21,600 nt of DNA. Source: a virus. This document shows, in pieces, positions 3,329 to 16,475 of the stretch (its first letter is position 1; each line of letters starts with the position of its first letter). Under the pieces are notes generated by a model. That model saw nothing but the letters and a program-made list of their open reading frames with translations, was not told where the DNA came from and did not search any database. The position numbers and the translations under genes are program-made. The stretch covers positions 1 through 21,600 of IMG/VR virus record IMGVR_UViG_3300022074_000435; one strand, 5' to 3'.

Positions 3329-3724
3329 ATGACAGAAGAAGTCAAAAAAGGCCCACTCAAAAAACTCAAAGAAACTATTGAGGATAAAGAGGAGCAACTT
3401 GCCTTTATCTCAGTTGTAGTAAGACTTGTTGTAGTCGGGTGGAGCGGTTTTATCGTCAGCCTAAACTACATCTCTATCCCAGGTTATACAAACGAACCAA
3501 AGGATATAACTTTTCCTGCTTCTCTGCTGACAGGTGCGTTAGCCAGTTTTGGTTTAGAAGGTGCTAAAAAAAGAGGTGATGGTACTTTTAAACCTGATGA
3601 AAAACCACTAAACAAGAAAGAAGTTGAAGCGTTACTAGCACAACAGTCGGGTGGTTATCAAACAGTTAGAATAGAAACACCTATAAAAATTATTGGTACT
3701 AAAGTAGTTGATCCAAAAAAATGA
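3329..3724 (+). CDS. Two-helix membrane protein, possible holin
   Basis: A 131-residue protein with a charged N-terminus (KKGPLKKLKETIEDKEEQ). It has a first hydrophobic segment at about 25-47 (LAFISVVVRLVVVGWSGFIV) and a second at about 59-76 (ITFPASLLTGALASFGL). A hydrophilic C-terminal half follows, ending in KVVDPKK. Two membrane spans and a charged tail are compatible with a class II holin, but the tail is long and no holin family is recognised. It heads the cassette that encodes three signal-peptide proteins, and its stop overlaps the next start (ATGA at 3721-3724). An alternative is a membrane partner of those secreted proteins. Confidence 0.65.
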   Translation: MTEEVKKGPLKKLKETIEDKEEQLAFISVVVRLVVVGWSGFIVSLNYISIPGYTNEPKDITFPASLLTGALASFGLEGAKKRGDGTFKPDEKPLNKKEVEALLAQQSGGYQTVRIETPIKIIGTKVVDPKK

Positions 3725-4227
3725 AAAAACTTCTTCCATTCTTGTTTTTACTGTCAGCACCAGCTTATGCTGATATAACAAGTAAATTTACATCAAGCGT
3801 TAGCGTTAAAGTTGATGCGGCTATGACCCAAGGTACAAGAATTGGTGCGTCATATAGTGCTTCTGGAAGCAATATCGGGACAAGTAATACTAATGATCAA
3901 ATCGGAGGGCTTACTGTCAGCAATAATACTGTCAGTTTAACTGCTGGAAATTATTCAATAAATGGTTGTGGAGCTACACCAGCAGCTTGTGCAGATACAT
4001 GGTCTTTATCAGAATCTTATACTGCTGCTGATACTATTCCAAGTAGCAATTCAAATATTACGGCTGGAACAGTTCCTAATTTTGGTAGCGTAATTTCTAC
4101 AGCGAATGGAACTGGTGATGGCTTTGCAGGGGCTATTACATCTGGTCATGGAATTACAGGATTACATGAAGGTGGAGCAGGTTCTACAGTTACAGGTCAA
4201 TTCGTAACGGAGCTAACTATAAGATGA
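3721..4227 (+). CDS. Secreted Ser/Thr/Gly-rich protein 1 of the cassette
   Basis: A 168-residue protein with a textbook Sec signal peptide: MKK, a hydrophobic core (LLPFLFLLSAP) and an A-Y-A cleavage site after residue 17. The mature part is rich in Ser, Thr, Gly and Asn with almost no charge. It has repeated short strands (VSVKVDAAMTQ, GLTVSNNTVSLTAGNYSI) and a C-terminal HEGGAGSTVTGQFVTELTIR. A possible disulfide pair (C81, C88) lies in GCGATPAACAD. The overall pattern suggests a secreted or surface beta-rich protein. It is translationally coupled to the membrane protein before it. I recall similar cassettes in marine cyanophages, where the function is not established. Confidence 0.75.
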   Translation: MKKLLPFLFLLSAPAYADITSKFTSSVSVKVDAAMTQGTRIGASYSASGSNIGTSNTNDQIGGLTVSNNTVSLTAGNYSINGCGATPAACADTWSLSESYTAADTIPSSNSNITAGTVPNFGSVISTANGTGDGFAGAITSGHGITGLHEGGAGSTVTGQFVTELTIR

Positions 4228-4230
4228 TCT

Positions 4231-4671
4231 ATGAAAAAACTCTTATTGTTGCTTTTGCTATATGTTGTACCTGTTAAATCACAGCCAGTTGTCCCAAATT
4301 TCACTACGGGAACACTCAGTAGCACCACGAATACAACCACTTCAATCAATGAGACTATCACTTCTACAGATTATCATGGTAATTCTTATGAGTATTCTGT
4401 TACTGGATTGGGAGTCACAACCAATGGATCAGTCGCTCCAAATACAACGAATGTTGATGGGACAGTAAATGGACAGAGTTATACATGGACAGGTTTAGAT
4501 TTATCAAACGGAAACAAACCAGTATTCAACCTAGCAAATCCCAGTTCTGGCAACGCATTTCAATATACAGAAACCTATCGTGGCCCAGGTGGGGTTTCAA
4601 ACGTAACAGTAATACAAAGAAATATAGAATCAACTTCAGTCGTCACAAGTACCTCAGTCTTCTCTCAGTAA
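4231..4671 (+). CDS. Secreted Thr/Asn-rich protein 2 of the cassette
   Basis: A 146-residue protein with a strong signal peptide (MKKLLLLLLLYVVPVKS, cleavage probably before Q18). It starts 3 bases after the stop of the previous gene. The mature sequence is very rich in Thr, Ser, Asn and Gly, with no cysteine. It carries beta-like stretches (GNSYEYSVTGLGVTTNGSV, NAFQYTETYRGPGGVSNVTV) and ends in STSVVTSTSVFSQ. The last 187 bases overlap, in another frame, the region upstream of the next secreted protein, including that protein's whole signal peptide. Function unknown; secreted or periplasmic location is inferred from the signal. Confidence 0.72.
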   Translation: MKKLLLLLLLYVVPVKSQPVVPNFTTGTLSSTTNTTTSINETITSTDYHGNSYEYSVTGLGVTTNGSVAPNTTNVDGTVNGQSYTWTGLDLSNGNKPVFNLANPSSGNAFQYTETYRGPGGVSNVTVIQRNIESTSVVTSTSVFSQ

Positions 4672-7129: not shown

Positions 7130-9952
7130 CTACCTTGCCCTTGCATTTTTGAAAGGAGATTCTGCAAATGCAAAATAAATATATGTATCATTTGAAGAGT
7201 TAATACCAGTTCCCCCTGATCTTATCTTAAAACCATTTGATAAGAAGTCACATTGTCTACCATTACCACTTTCTTCGTAATAACTTAAATCAGCATATAA
7301 CCATCCTAAATCATCATTCACTGCACCTCTTTTGTTATCCATTATGATCCAGTTATTATCATCATCTACCTCTCGTATCAAAAGCCAAGCGACTCTAAAA
7401 CCTGTAAAAACAAAAGGGCCATCTGAGTTTGCAGTTCCAATATAGCTGCCAAACTTGCTATAGCCTGCTACATCACTGAATACATAAGCTACATATGTTT
7501 CCCCACTTGCATTTACACTGTCATAAGTGTACTCATTATTATATCTAGTTATAGAGTAAGTACTAGAACTACTAAAATTGCTAATAATTCCTTGACCTGA
7601 ATGATTATTATCAAAAGCATCAGTATTGTCTAAATAACCACTTAATCCACCAGCACCCGAATGTTTTACGTTCCAGTTTTTACCACCACCACTTAATTTT
7701 TTAGTTAAAGCAACATTTGGTGTAACTCCTAGACCATGACCTATAGTTGCATCTGCTCCTGTTCCTGAGTAAGTAATAATTGAAAACCCTGCTGAAGTAT
7801 TTGTTTTAATAGTTGTTTGTATTGAACCATCAAAATTACTTGATCCAAGAGTTGTGTTTGTATTTACACCTCCACCCATTCCATTGTGGTTATAACAAAA
7901 ATAAAATAAATTATTTGTAGTAGCTGGTATTGTAAATTCTAATCTTCTTGTTGAGGCTGCTGAAAAACCAGCATGATATTGTGCAAAAGTTTTTACAACA
8001 CCATCTAACTTATAAACAATTCCCGATCCGAAAGGTGCTGTAGCATCATCGGCTGCAGTTCCAATCATAAATGGATGGGAAGCATTTGAAGCATCATCCA
8101 TATTAAAGATATAAGTACCACCTTCTGCAAGGTCAAGAGTTACAGCAGACGTTCCAAAGCCGTCAAATCTATATTTATTACCAGAATCAGAAACAACTGT
8201 TACTGTATAAGTTTTGCCATCGGTATCGCCAGCGTTCCAGTTCCATGCAACTTGAGTAGAAGATCCACTTGGAGTACCATTTACATACCAACTTGTGTTG
8301 TAGCCAACTGTAAAACCATTACTTAAAAATGCTGAAAAAGCTGTTTGTGAATCTGAAGAATTATTTTCTGCATCTCCTTCATTTGATGCAAGTATTTTTC
8401 CTACTCCCCTCACGGAATCAATTAAAGCATGCCACCCACTTGTCGAGTATACTTTTAACCAAACCCAATCAGGTTGAAAGTTGAGGGAAGTAATATTTTG
8501 AGTTCCAGAACCTGATCCTGTATAAAGAACAGTATCAAAATGTTTATTAGGTAGCAGTATTGTTGGGTCGGGTAAGTTTGCTGAACATAATGCTTTATAT
8601 CCACTAGGAACTGAATAATAAAAGTCACCTTGACCACTTCCATCTGTGTTGCCTTGTGCTGTTTTTGTACCAGCAAATGAACTATCTTGTCCAAAATTAG
8701 TAATAAAAGTATGATTTTCACTACTATTACTATTGTGCATTGTAGGGGTTACTGTTCCAGATACATTTGTGTGTATTTTGACATCTATTAAAGTGCCGTT
8801 TTTAGATACTTTCCAGCTACCATCATCTAAGTCAAGAAGAATACCTATAATGTCACCAGTTACCCAACTGAGTCCTGATACATTTGCTTGAGAACCATTA
8901 TGATCTGATTCACCACCTCCACCACGAACTCTCCAAAAATCACTATTGTCAACTGATTTAACACCGACACCAACATTACTTGCATTTCCAGTAGATGATT
9001 GCATATATTCTTCCCAATACCATTTACCACTACTAACAGCAAAAGTAGCACCTGATTCTTCATCACTACCTTGATATGCAATCACAGTTTTTAAATTTCC
9101 TTCTGAAAAAGTATTATCTTTTCCTTTCGCATCTACTATATTCCAAATTGCAAAATTATTTGTCGGGCTATCTTTTACAGCATCACCAGTTACAAAATTA
9201 TTTGGTGTGAAGTTGTTAGAGTTACCGCTTGAATCTTTGCCAAGAGTGGTTGCTGTTGTGGCACTGTTATCACTGAAGTTTAGGTAAAACCCATTTGTTC
9301 CATAACTTCCTGTGTATTTTTTAGGATTCCATTGACCAGTTGTTGCATTTGTTTCAGCAAAATATGATGGGCCATAAGCAAATCCATCAATAAAGTTTAC
9401 TTCTGCTAAATAACCATCAAGTCTGTAGGCATGAGAAGTGCTATAGGAATAAGCTCCAATAGTAGTTGATGAATTATTATTAAGAGGTGTATCCGCATTT
9501 TGTGATAGACCTAATTGATTATTATAAATTAAATCTCCATTAACATATACTTTAAATCTATTTACAGCAGTAGATTCTGTTGTATCCATAACCCAAACAC
9601 AATGATACCAAGCACTTGGATCTCTTAATCTAGCAGTAGAGTAATATCCACCAACACCATAATAATCAACACCAATATAACCATTATTTGTAATTCTGTA
9701 GGTCATATTTGCTCCACCTGAACCAGCACCAGTACTTAAGAAAAGTCCATTCCCCGGATCATTTGAAGTACTAATTCCTGTTTGTCCTAATTTTACCCAT
9801 GCACTAAAAGTAAAAGTTTTTCTGTTACCAGCAGAGGAAGGAGTTCTTGTTAAATATGCGTTGTCATTTCTATTAAACCTTAAACTACGTTCTACTTCGT
9901 ATGCCTTCTTCCCTGCTAGAAAGAAAGGTGATGGACTTCCTAGGCTGCTCAT
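7130..9952 (-). CDS. Large multidomain tail fibre / adhesin (LamG, SPRY, cupredoxin-like)
   Basis: A 940-residue protein. Order of parts: residues 1-25 are a short N-terminus. About 45-230 form a LamG/concanavalin-like lectin fold (FTFSAWVKLG, AWYHCVWVMD, RFKVYVNGDLIY, RLDGYLAEVNFIDG). About 285-450 form a SPRY-like domain (SSGKWYWEEYM, VGVGVKSV, GSWKVSKNGTLIDV, GYKALCSANLP). About 470-575 form a marine-phage fibre repeat (FDTVLYTGSGSGTQNI...FQPDWVWLK...VAWNWNAG). About 580-700 form a cupredoxin-like insert with H626, C686, H689 and M692. About 705-935 are a second copy of the fibre repeat type (IITYSGTGADATIGHGLGV, ETYVAYVFSDVAG). It is probably a receptor-binding or glycan-binding tail fibre. 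The start shares a base with the previous stop (TAATG). The end is followed by the assembly-like gene. Confidence 0.8.
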   Translation of the reverse strand: MSSLGSPSPFFLAGKKAYEVERSLRFNRNDNAYLTRTPSSAGNRKTFTFSAWVKLGQTGISTSNDPGNGLFLSTGAGSGGANMTYRITNNGYIGVDYYGVGGYYSTARLRDPSAWYHCVWVMDTTESTAVNRFKVYVNGDLIYNNQLGLSQNADTPLNNNSSTTIGAYSYSTSHAYRLDGYLAEVNFIDGFAYGPSYFAETNATTGQWNPKKYTGSYGTNGFYLNFSDNSATTATTLGKDSSGNSNNFTPNNFVTGDAVKDSPTNNFAIWNIVDAKGKDNTFSEGNLKTVIAYQGSDEESGATFAVSSGKWYWEEYMQSSTGNASNVGVGVKSVDNSDFWRVRGGGGESDHNGSQANVSGLSWVTGDIIGILLDLDDGSWKVSKNGTLIDVKIHTNVSGTVTPTMHNSNSSENHTFITNFGQDSSFAGTKTAQGNTDGSGQGDFYYSVPSGYKALCSANLPDPTILLPNKHFDTVLYTGSGSGTQNITSLNFQPDWVWLKVYSTSGWHALIDSVRGVGKILASNEGDAENNSSDSQTAFSAFLSNGFTVGYNTSWYVNGTPSGSSTQVAWNWNAGDTDGKTYTVTVVSDSGNKYRFDGFGTSAVTLDLAEGGTYIFNMDDASNASHPFMIGTAADDATAPFGSGIVYKLDGVVKTFAQYHAGFSAASTRRLEFTIPATTNNLFYFCYNHNGMGGGVNTNTTLGSSNFDGSIQTTIKTNTSAGFSIITYSGTGADATIGHGLGVTPNVALTKKLSGGGKNWNVKHSGAGGLSGYLDNTDAFDNNHSGQGIISNFSSSSTYSITRYNNEYTYDSVNASGETYVAYVFSDVAGYSKFGSYIGTANSDGPFVFTGFRVAWLLIREVDDDNNWIIMDNKRGAVNDDLGWLYADLSYYEESGNGRQCDFLSNGFKIRSGGTGINSSNDTYIYFAFAESPFKNARAR

Positions 9953-13043: not shown

Positions 13044-16000
13044 CTACCCTTTTCCAAAACCGACAGCCGTATATGAGAAATTCTTACCAATCGAAGCATT
13101 GGAACTATTCTTGAAATCTATGGTAAATCCCGTTCCAGAAAGATTTGTTATTACAAAATAATCTCCAGAAGCTAAATTTTGTGCCGTTATATTTACTGAA
13201 GGTAAATTACTATTGGCTCCTAATAAAGCAGCCGTTCCAGTGAAAAATGTATTGTCAAAAGTATATGCTGTAGCTGCTGCACTTTGAGTAATATTTGTTT
13301 TTATCTCCTGTCTTGCCTGTATTTTTGCAGTGTATCCTAATTCAAATACTCTAATATCTTGCTCTGGGTCGGCACTTGTAAGAACTGTTCTAAATTGAAA
13401 ACCTCTTGCTTTAAACGTACCGCTTGAAAAAGGTTCAAAAGATGTATAAGTAGGAGAACCAGAAGTAGGATCATCCTGTGTTCTTCGTACAAACAACTGA
13501 GCATCTACATCATTAGCCTCTGTTCCATCAAAATTACCAGTAGTAGGAAATGCAGGATTTCTTGAATCAAATAAATCTGATGGGAAAAAACCTTCTGTTT
13601 TAAAGTGTCTTACTAAATCAAGACTGAATATAGCACCCAAATCTAAAGTATCTTTAAAGTCATAAGTTCCAGAAGGTGCAATGCCTCCTATGTCATCTAA
13701 CGAACCAACGTCATCAAATGTTCCTGTAATACTGCCACCAATATCATCAAATAAACCAACACCAGCCAAGTTAAGAGCATCTGTAGCTTCATCTACAGCA
13801 GTATTTACCTTTACACCTTGAAACTTAGGAACATCTTGATCTTCTCTTCTTGTTTGAACTAATAAATTGTTTGAAGTATCAGCAAGTTGTACTACAGCAC
13901 TACCTTCTCCTGTACTAAATCTCCCACCATCATCTTGAAACTTAAGGATGTATTCTCCAGTAATTGCAGGAACTATTGCAAAAGTTGAGTTTCCAGGTAC
14001 AGCTTCTATTAAATCTACAGCGTTTTCAAAAGTACCTGTTCCATCGGTTCTGGAACTGTCGTGTCTGATATAAACAAATCCACCATGTGTAACATCTAAA
14101 TCAGTAGATTTATTCCACCTTAATCTTATTGATCCATTATCTCCAGGTATTTGTTCAGCAGATACTCCTGTTACATCTCCTGGAACAGCAGTTTTACCAA
14201 CAGTATTAAAAGTATCGGTTGCAGATGTAGCACTAGCTTCTAACGCAGCATTTACACTAAAAACAGATACTTCATAAGATCCTACTTTTGTATTAAAGAT
14301 TTCAAAATCAGGACTACCAGTTGTAGCTGAAACAATATTATTATCACCAAATCTATAGTTAACCATGTAATTGGAAACACCAGTTACAGGTTGCCATCTA
14401 ACAATTAATTTAGATACAGGTTGATTATTTATTAATACGATTACTTCATCTGCTGATAATCCACTAGGAGGTGGCTTTAATAAATTTAAAGTTGATATTT
14501 GCTGTGGTGTAATTGTTTCACCATCTTCAATAAATGCGTATTTTTCATTTACATAAGCTAATGCTGATATTCCATAACTAATCCCATCTCGTTCTTCAAC
14601 AGACATAACTCTGAATGACTGAGCAGAAACAGTATCATTTTCTAACATCCAAATACTATTAACATTTGGGGTAGCACTAAATGGACTAGAAGAATCAATC
14701 GTAATCACTTTCCCTGTTATGTTAGTTACATTTTTAATTTCTACAGTTCCATTTGGCATTATTACACTTAATTTAGGATTATTTTGATCTGATAAATCAG
14801 TATCACTAGAATCATCTACTGTGATTTGAGTAGTTGTAGCTGTATTAATTCTTCCTGCCCTCCTTATCCCTGATCTCGCTGGATCGGAAATACTAATAAT
14901 CGCTCCAGGTCTTACAACACATCCTGATTCCATTGAAACAGAGAAGTTTACAGCTTCAGTTTCTCTTTGTTCTGCAAATAATATAGCTTTTGCAAACCTT
15001 CTGGCCTGACCTCTACTTGTGCAACCTAATGCCTTTACTCTCTTAACGTGCAATCCATATTTACTTCTATAAGCTGCTTCTGCTTCTACCTCTTCATAAT
15101 CTAAATCTCTAGTTTCCATATTAAAGTAGGAAACTGCAACTACTGTACTTCTAGTTTTTAAACTGCTTCCTGTATAGCTAAATCCTTCTGCACTGACATT
15201 GGCTAAAGTAAATAAATAACTAGGATCTTTTGGACTGTCTTGAGTAAGAAGTAATGCACCCTCAGACCAGATAGGCATACATCTCATTATTCCTGACAAA
15301 GTGTTTATGACAGTAAACGCTTCAACACTTGTTTGAATATTTATGTTGCAAGCAAATCTAGCTTCCTGTCCACCAAATCCATCATCAACAAGAGTATTAG
15401 AGAATTTACTAGCAGTTACAAATGAAAATAAATCTAAATTACTATCAATAATATGATTACCTAGCCCATACCTAGTATTAGTAAGTAAATCGAGAAGTAT
15501 TAAAGAAGGGCAAGTTGTCCATTGAGCAGCACCCATTACTCCATTAAAGATATAACCAGCAGGGTAAACAACTCTTCCAGTTTGTAAGTCTACAGTGGGA
15601 GTACCCGATCCACTAGCTCCTGCACCTGGGATTCTTACTTTTACTCCTCTAACTCTAAATTTTCTACCTGGAATCCTGCTAAAAAATTCTGAATCTAAAC
15701 GTAATCTTGTATAAGCACTATTCGGATATGTACTTGCATCATCTTCTAACTCTGAAAAAGATTGCCAAATTAAATCTCTTTGTATTCTATCTGTGCTATT
15801 TGCTGATGTTTTTACTAAACGAACATCTACGGGATGAGCACCAGTAAGCTCAATTCTATATTCTCTATTGTAAGCATCTGCTGTTCTACCTCTGATAGTA
15901 TCCGAATGAACTGTGGTAAAACCACCTCCATTATATTGAAGTTGTATATCGAAATTAACTTGAGAACCTATAACATCTCCATCATCTTCAATTACTTGCA

Positions 16001-16475
16001 AAATAGGCACAGTAATAGTAACTTTTACAGCATCTAAATCAGAATTATTAGTAAGTTGTCTTGTTATTGGAGAACCATTTTCAACTTTAACTCCTACATT
16101 AAAAAGCGAAGCACTTCCCGAAACTTTAGACATTTTTGCTTGGGGATCTGTACCAAAACGAATATCAAGGTCTACATTTTGATGATTGAAGTCAACACTT
16201 TGTGGATCGGTTGAATCAGCATTAGAAGATAAAATAGGAGTATCGTCTAAGAAAATATCTTTTTTTGCAGCATTTTTATATGCAGTAGTACCTTTAGTTC
16301 TACCTTCTTTTGAAGGACTAGAAAAACCTTCTATTTCACCTTCAGAAATAAGATCAAGTAAGGTCGCAAATTGTTTACTATGTAAATTATCGGGTGTGAT
16401 AGTTGGTGGATCACCACCGCCACCTTTACCACCACCACCGCCAGATCCAGCTATATGTTTATTATCTTCAATCAT
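13044..16475 (-). CDS. J: Host-specificity tail-tip protein (lambda J-like)
   Basis: A 1143-residue protein that begins with a Gly-rich segment (11-21) and QFATLLDLISEGEIEG (35-50), the standard start of lambda-J-family tip proteins. Residues about 100-300 form the tip domains (GRKFRVRGVKVRIPG). They are followed by CPSLILLDLLTNTRYGLG (322-339) and the conserved central region (FSYTGSSLKTRSTVVAVSYF, about 432-451; GCTSRGQARRFAKAILFAEQRET, about 484-506). Two fibronectin-III-like domains lie at about 670-760 and 765-868. The C-terminus carries an unusual Asp/Gly repeat (FDDIGGSITGTFDDVGSLDDIGG, about 909-931) and a late beta domain ending in GFGKG. J binds the host receptor and closes the tube. 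The stop lies 29 bases before the first fibre, and the start overlaps the I-like gene (ATGA). Confidence 0.9.
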   Translation of the reverse strand: MIEDNKHIAGSGGGGGKGGGGDPPTITPDNLHSKQFATLLDLISEGEIEGFSSPSKEGRTKGTTAYKNAAKKDIFLDDTPILSSNADSTDPQSVDFNHQNVDLDIRFGTDPQAKMSKVSGSASLFNVGVKVENGSPITRQLTNNSDLDAVKVTITVPILQVIEDDGDVIGSQVNFDIQLQYNGGGFTTVHSDTIRGRTADAYNREYRIELTGAHPVDVRLVKTSANSTDRIQRDLIWQSFSELEDDASTYPNSAYTRLRLDSEFFSRIPGRKFRVRGVKVRIPGAGASGSGTPTVDLQTGRVVYPAGYIFNGVMGAAQWTTCPSLILLDLLTNTRYGLGNHIIDSNLDLFSFVTASKFSNTLVDDGFGGQEARFACNINIQTSVEAFTVINTLSGIMRCMPIWSEGALLLTQDSPKDPSYLFTLANVSAEGFSYTGSSLKTRSTVVAVSYFNMETRDLDYEEVEAEAAYRSKYGLHVKRVKALGCTSRGQARRFAKAILFAEQRETEAVNFSVSMESGCVVRPGAIISISDPARSGIRRAGRINTATTTQITVDDSSDTDLSDQNNPKLSVIMPNGTVEIKNVTNITGKVITIDSSSPFSATPNVNSIWMLENDTVSAQSFRVMSVEERDGISYGISALAYVNEKYAFIEDGETITPQQISTLNLLKPPPSGLSADEVIVLINNQPVSKLIVRWQPVTGVSNYMVNYRFGDNNIVSATTGSPDFEIFNTKVGSYEVSVFSVNAALEASATSATDTFNTVGKTAVPGDVTGVSAEQIPGDNGSIRLRWNKSTDLDVTHGGFVYIRHDSSRTDGTGTFENAVDLIEAVPGNSTFAIVPAITGEYILKFQDDGGRFSTGEGSAVVQLADTSNNLLVQTRREDQDVPKFQGVKVNTAVDEATDALNLAGVGLFDDIGGSITGTFDDVGSLDDIGGIAPSGTYDFKDTLDLGAIFSLDLVRHFKTEGFFPSDLFDSRNPAFPTTGNFDGTEANDVDAQLFVRRTQDDPTSGSPTYTSFEPFSSGTFKARGFQFRTVLTSADPEQDIRVFELGYTAKIQARQEIKTNITQSAAATAYTFDNTFFTGTAALLGANSNLPSVNITAQNLASGDYFVITNLSGTGFTIDFKNSSNASIGKNFSYTAVGFGKG

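Follow-up and report, generated by a model that had tools for sequence, protein, structure and literature searches.

A predicted cupredoxin domain with a type-1 copper ligand set in the tail fibre of a marine siphovirus

The fibre gene and its genomic context

The window that we analyzed is a 21.6 kb record of a marine virus (21,600 nucleotides). Its minus strand has a siphovirus tail operon that resembles that of lambda, with homologs of the J, K, I, and L types. The fibre gene at 7130..9952 (minus strand; ORF 9952-7130) encodes a protein of 940 amino acids that belongs to the virion structural protein family phrog_19943 in PHROGs (E = 1e-176). We place this gene in a siphovirus tail operon because a lambda J-like central tail fibre is encoded at 13044..16475, also on the minus strand (phrog_31, E = 1.4e-165).

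The closest annotated relatives of the window are the Prochlorococcus siphophages MED4-117, MED4-184, and P-HS2, with J proteins about 37–38% identical to its own, and the single-cell virus AG-345-A17, so a Prochlorococcus-type host is plausible from sequence similarity. This agrees with a preliminary description of the window, which had presumed a phototrophic host. In AG-345-A17, pieces of J are 61–64% identical to the protein in the window, and the DNA is 83% identical over part of the window. Elsewhere in the window (3721-4671, plus strand) are two adjoining small ORFs with signal-peptide-like starts (MKKLLPFLFLLSAPAYA and MKKLLLLLLLYVVPVKS).

A domain inserted into the DUF7483 region

The fibre protein contains a SPRY domain at residues 310-417 (8702..9025, minus strand; Pfam, E = 1.1e-7) and is a member of the DUF7483 family (PF24299), with a score of 289.6 bits versus a cut-off of 27 bits and E = 4e-86 for the whole protein. 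Pfam's model for DUF7483 matches the fibre in two stretches, of which the best is the C-terminal part, at residues 702-933 (7154..7849, minus strand; positions 107-330 of the profile). The N-terminal side of the interrupted region includes the left flank at residues 470-574 (8231..8545, minus strand), as judged from the two DUF7483 stretches and from relatives with an empty site. Between these flanks is the inserted domain, at residues 575-702 (7847..8230, minus strand).

The preliminary description had also proposed that a domain interrupts the fibre, at residues 580-700 or so and between two copies of a fibre repeat. The interruption holds up, with limits that we redraw to 575-702. The two copies of a repeat do not: because Pfam finds two stretches of one family, and because insert-free relatives join the flanks with just 4–7 residues, the domain lies inside a single DUF7483 region.

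In the fibres of Roseobacter phage CRP-811, Methylophilales phage MEP301, and cyanophage SS120-1, both flanks align and the domain is absent. Similarly, viral contigs that we recruited by the flanks, and that contain both of them, have either a gap of 110–130 amino acids with the cupredoxin or a gap of 4–7 amino acids without it. In a fibre from an uncultured Mediterranean phage (L330:544-4239), about 280 amino acids of unrelated sequence occupy precisely the position where the cupredoxin is otherwise inserted, so it appears that display domains can be exchanged at this site. Such exchange in turn suggests that the domain is exposed and has an accessory function, for example in attachment.

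Four residues of the domain are predicted copper ligands, and their codons (all on the minus strand) are where the preliminary description had put them: His626, within SHPF, at 8075..8077; Cys686, the putative thiolate ligand, at 7895..7897; His689, at 7886..7888; and Met692, the putative axial ligand, at 7877..7879. The beta strands that it had quoted are present in the translation as well. Cys686 is the only cysteine in the domain, so we rejected the possibility that it forms a disulfide within the domain. The preliminary description had cautioned that plastocyanin-type sites have a somewhat longer spacing between Cys and Met. This is true of plastocyanin, but it is not a concern for the site, as C-x2-H-x2-M is exactly the spacing of amicyanin (the CTPHPFM loop, in the title of PDB entry 2fta). 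We therefore rejected the idea that the loop is too short for a type-1 copper site.

The domain is predicted to have a cupredoxin fold

The preliminary description had proposed a structure prediction, and the predicted fold is of the kind that it had named. Using an alignment of 31 homologs, AlphaFold2 modeled the domain from the window with a pLDDT of 89.3 and a pTM of 0.85. The form of the domain from gp9-type baseplate proteins (discussed below) was modeled with a pLDDT of 95.3. Both models are Greek-key beta-sandwiches with the cupredoxin topology. As is usual for cupredoxins, the cysteine in the model of the window's domain ends a strand (108-112), and the second histidine and the methionine are in the loop that precedes the last strand (120-123).

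When the model was re-aligned to the PDB with VIA, all 50 of the matches listed were cupredoxins or multicopper proteins. The best match for the window's domain was residues 24-134 of 2dv6 (Z = 9.6, rmsd 2.7 Å over 102 residues), and the gp9-type form aligned to the same structure with Z = 10.7 and 2.2 Å over 94 residues; Z scores of about 9–10 are modestly above the level that this tool calls common. Most of the best matches from Foldseek were cupredoxins, laccases, or nitrite reductases, and its top match for the window's domain was the cupredoxin AcoP (7z3b, E = 3e-4). The domain almost certainly has a cupredoxin fold. We also noticed that two "Beta-sandwich proteins" in BFVD, from Pithovirus and Marseillevirus (A0A481Z6J5 and A0A481YWX9), match the same fold.

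Sequence profiles relate the domain to blue copper proteins

We compared a hidden Markov model of 43 diverse homologs to all of the sequences in the PDB. All 28 matches with E < 10 were blue-copper or multicopper proteins, including amicyanin, plastocyanin, azurin, pseudoazurin, other blue copper proteins, nitrite reductase, and multicopper oxidase. In the alignments to amicyanin, the C-x2-H-x2-M motif of the phage proteins falls on CTAHPFM or CTPHPFM, and the first histidine of the phage proteins falls on the first histidine of amicyanin. Also, an alignment to cyanophage plastocyanins with hhalign (probability 94.6, E = 7e-8) has the His, Cys, and His residues in register. Thus, the putative ligands have the order and spacing of a type-1 site (His ... 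Cys-x2-His-x(2-4)-Met).

Only the family profile found these relatives: a direct search of the PDB with the single domain sequence from the window had no matches. Likewise, the domain from the window did not match the amicyanin family of NCBIfam (TIGR02657), or Copper-bind of Pfam (PF00127) at E < 1, let alone at the curated cut-off of 21.2 bits. We dismissed the Pfam matches of the lone domain (PilA4) as chance. Among the 43 homologs, the most-matched family is TIGR02657, albeit weakly (10 homologs, best E = 0.0018), followed in NCBIfam by the halocyanin model (8 homologs). In Pfam, 9 homologs match PF00127 (best E = 2.2e-4). Structural proteins from the cyanophages P-SSM2 and P-HM2 approach the cut-off for PF00127, at 19.8 and 19.3 bits. 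There are also weak matches of 9/43 homologs to the plant At5g54830-like domain (PF25489), which might be another distant relative of the cupredoxins.

The phage domains differ from plastocyanin and amicyanin in the position after the first histidine, which is proline in 39/43 homologs instead of the usual asparagine of the plastocyanin, azurin, and amicyanin families. A Bacteroidetes protein (L270) that scores above the cut-off for PF00127 has His-Pro as well. The domain has His-Pro instead of His-Asn, and it lies outside of PF00127 by the curated cut-off. We place it in the cupredoxin superfamily as a new and divergent branch, in a setting that is new as well.

The putative ligands are retained or lost together

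The preliminary description had suggested a survey of homologous fibres, on the reasoning that ligands of a metal site should not vary freely. In close homologs of the window's domain, His626, Pro627, Cys686, His689, and Met692 are invariant (81/81 aligned sequences), while the intervening stretch varies in both length and sequence. Within the 43-member alignment, the four residues rank 1, 4, 5, and 7 for conservation among 85 columns, but this alignment omits the copies without ligands, so the ranking is partly by construction.

To avoid recruiting homologs by their ligands, we conducted a census with the four ligand columns masked. Of 66 representatives (under 80% identity), from contigs that were fetched by peptide patterns, some of which contain the motif, 60 have all three of the His/Cys/His residues, 6 have none of them, and none has a partial set. 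(A few very divergent copies, such as the first copy in L186 and gp10 from S-PM2, appear to be partial but align poorly.) The axial position of the 60 ligand-keeping copies is usually Met (57 copies), with one instance each of Lys, Gln, and Leu, so the site tolerates axial changes while keeping its two histidines and cysteine. As an approach that does not rely on the domain itself, we also considered the inserts that were recruited by the flank outside of it, and all 18 of the complete ones keep all four residues. The assignments of Cys686 and His689 thus draw on homologs, profile alignments, and the masked census, and for Cys686 on the AlphaFold2 model too.

The six copies without ligands have F, R, Q, D, or N in place of the first histidine and S, A, or G in place of the cysteine. 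All six are the second copy within gp10-type proteins from one lineage, so there was perhaps a single loss. They retain the scaffold motif (RGKTYIFNQDDSSN or a close variant), which argues that the ligands were not lost by general decay. Gp10-type proteins from marine contigs (L198, L206, L217, L218, L195, and L192) have two copies each, the first with intact ligands and the second without any; where we inspected the order (e.g., L198 and L218), the intact copy is upstream. Overall, the occurrence of the four residues is well beyond chance, the putative ligands do not vary freely, and the pattern of joint retention or joint loss in these sequences indicates that the residues of the predicted metal site are under selection as a unit.

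Distribution in phages and cells

Scans of viral contigs for the domain found 122 related stretches in the first scan and over 500 in the second. Relatives of the window's domain were found in 303 phage records, nearly all of them from cyanophages, and a gp9-type query had matches in 370 phage records. In PHROGs, the domain is found within phrog_708 ("baseplate wedge subunit") and phrog_677 ("baseplate wedge tail fiber protein connector"), and the N-terminus of one gp9-type protein matches T4_gp9_10_N from Pfam. By these family assignments, the same domain serves in both siphovirus fibres and contractile-tail baseplates. Hundreds of cyanophages have it in their tail and baseplate proteins, which suggests that a copper site is present on the host-contacting part of many viruses in the ocean.

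When we scanned genomes with one peptide pattern for a cellular source of the domain, we found a single relative. A metagenome-assembled genome from the Bacteroidetes (L264:1871-4258) encodes a cellular counterpart, a collagen-like protein of 796 amino acids that has a signal-peptide-like start and, at its C-terminus, the same cupredoxin domain with the four residues. In P-SSM2 (L253), the domain adjoins a collagen-like stretch.

Comparison to known copper proteins

Blue copper proteins are soluble or membrane-bound electron carriers or domains of enzymes, and we know of none on a virion. Among the small blue copper proteins, the best relative by profile is amicyanin (TIGR02657; PDB 1aac and 1sf3), which has the same first histidine and an identical C-x2-H-x2-M spacing. 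However, amicyanin is a periplasmic electron carrier with Asn after the first histidine, while the phage domain has Pro at that position, has a longer and variable middle, and is part of a fibre. The best matches by fold are the N-terminal cupredoxin region (24-134) of the nitrite reductase from Hyphomicrobium denitrificans (2dv6), which is also one domain of a larger protein, and AcoP (7z3b). In contrast to the fibre domain, these are an enzyme and a respiratory protein, with no phage context.

Cyanophages do encode another blue copper protein, the plastocyanin petE, whose His/Cys/His residues are in register with those of the fibre domain. Unlike the fibre domain, petE is a separate gene for a soluble photosynthesis protein (L265-L267), as is established (PMC3037559), with a C-x2-H-x4-M loop, and it is not a domain of the virion. 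The gp9 and gp10 baseplate proteins of cyanomyoviruses (phrog_677 and phrog_708) share both the domain and its residues, albeit in a contractile-tail baseplate instead of a siphovirus fibre. Their putative copper site is apparently undescribed in the literature that we searched. More broadly, our search of published open-access papers found no report that joins cupredoxins with phage tails or with structural proteins of cyanophages.

Does the site bind copper?

The fold, the register of the ligands, and their conservation all support what the preliminary description had proposed, a cupredoxin-like domain with a complete set of type-1 ligands (as a predicted site). Our preferred explanation, to which we assign a probability of roughly 75%, is that a siphovirus fibre has gained, by insertion into its DUF7483 part, a divergent cupredoxin whose type-1 copper site is of the amicyanin kind. 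Copper binding by the predicted site is strongly implied, and we expect that a type-1-like metal site is probably occupied in the virion.

Instead, the cupredoxin scaffold might be inert and metal-free, reused by the phages for adhesion or as a spacer, with the four residues kept for packing. Beta-sandwich domains are often reused in phage fibres, and the gp10-type copies that lack ligands retain the scaffold, which indicates that the fold works without the site. If each of the residues were important for packing, though, we would expect partial losses, and there were none among 66 representatives; where the site is lost, its positions drift freely. It is also hard to explain otherwise why a free cysteine would be kept across phages of different morphologies, so we consider a metal-free structural copy to be improbable. 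Another explanation, which we view as somewhat unlikely, is that the site holds a different metal such as zinc, or that copper is a tight structural staple instead of a redox center. Zinc forms of azurin are known, and a set of two His, one Cys, and one Met is able to coordinate Zn(II); in addition, free copper is scarce in the cytoplasm, where the fibre folds. On the other hand, all of the nearest families by profile are copper proteins, and the variation among Met, Gln, and Leu at the axial position is typical of type-1 copper: stellacyanin has an axial Gln, and some laccases have an axial Leu. A structural copper staple would be compatible with our preferred explanation.

What the metal would do is less certain. 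It is an even bet whether the metal is needed for attachment to the host or for the stability of the virion, and a true role in electron transfer or redox sensing seems unlikely. One proposal along these lines is that the site senses the redox state of photosynthesis close to the surface of the cyanobacterium, which would explain the light-dependent adsorption of some cyanophages. P-SSP7, in which we did not find copies of the domain, infects in the dark, as this proposal would predict. But P-SSM2 has four copies and reportedly adsorbs in the dark, and S-PM2, which is said (from the 2010 work on light-dependent adsorption) to adsorb only in the light, has just one weak match without a clear set of ligands. 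P-HM2, which has five copies, agrees with the proposal in that it fails to adsorb in the dark (PMC7112961). These are too few phages to prove anything, and because no clear site was found in S-PM2, we did not adopt this as a general explanation for light-dependent adsorption; it is very unlikely.

Returning to the copper-binding cupredoxin, we propose that the domain would fold without metal in the cytoplasm of the host and that, as the most likely course, it would take up copper after lysis. The bound metal would then order the loops where Cys686, His689, and Met692 lie, at one end of the sandwich, and this metal-dependent end would be the functional face, which may dock to a component of the host's surface. 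A redox-dependent change at this end is conceivable but less certain. We are doubtful of a stronger version, in which marine phages of several morphologies have a functional type-1 copper (redox) center on their host-contact apparatus, and in which the metal or its redox state controls attachment or the triggering of the baseplate, so that the virion would be a device gated by metal or redox state.

Implications

Even if the domain is metal-free in nature, it represents a widespread and unannotated family, whose members are currently labeled as hypothetical proteins or as baseplate wedge subunits. Phage tails have been proposed to carry iron, and a copper site on the tail would parallel that proposal. 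If copper is bound, then viruses that rank among the most abundant in the ocean would carry copper into and out of contact with their hosts. This would bear on copper limitation and copper toxicity for picocyanobacteria, and it would provide a concrete metal center to consider in the triggering of phage tails.
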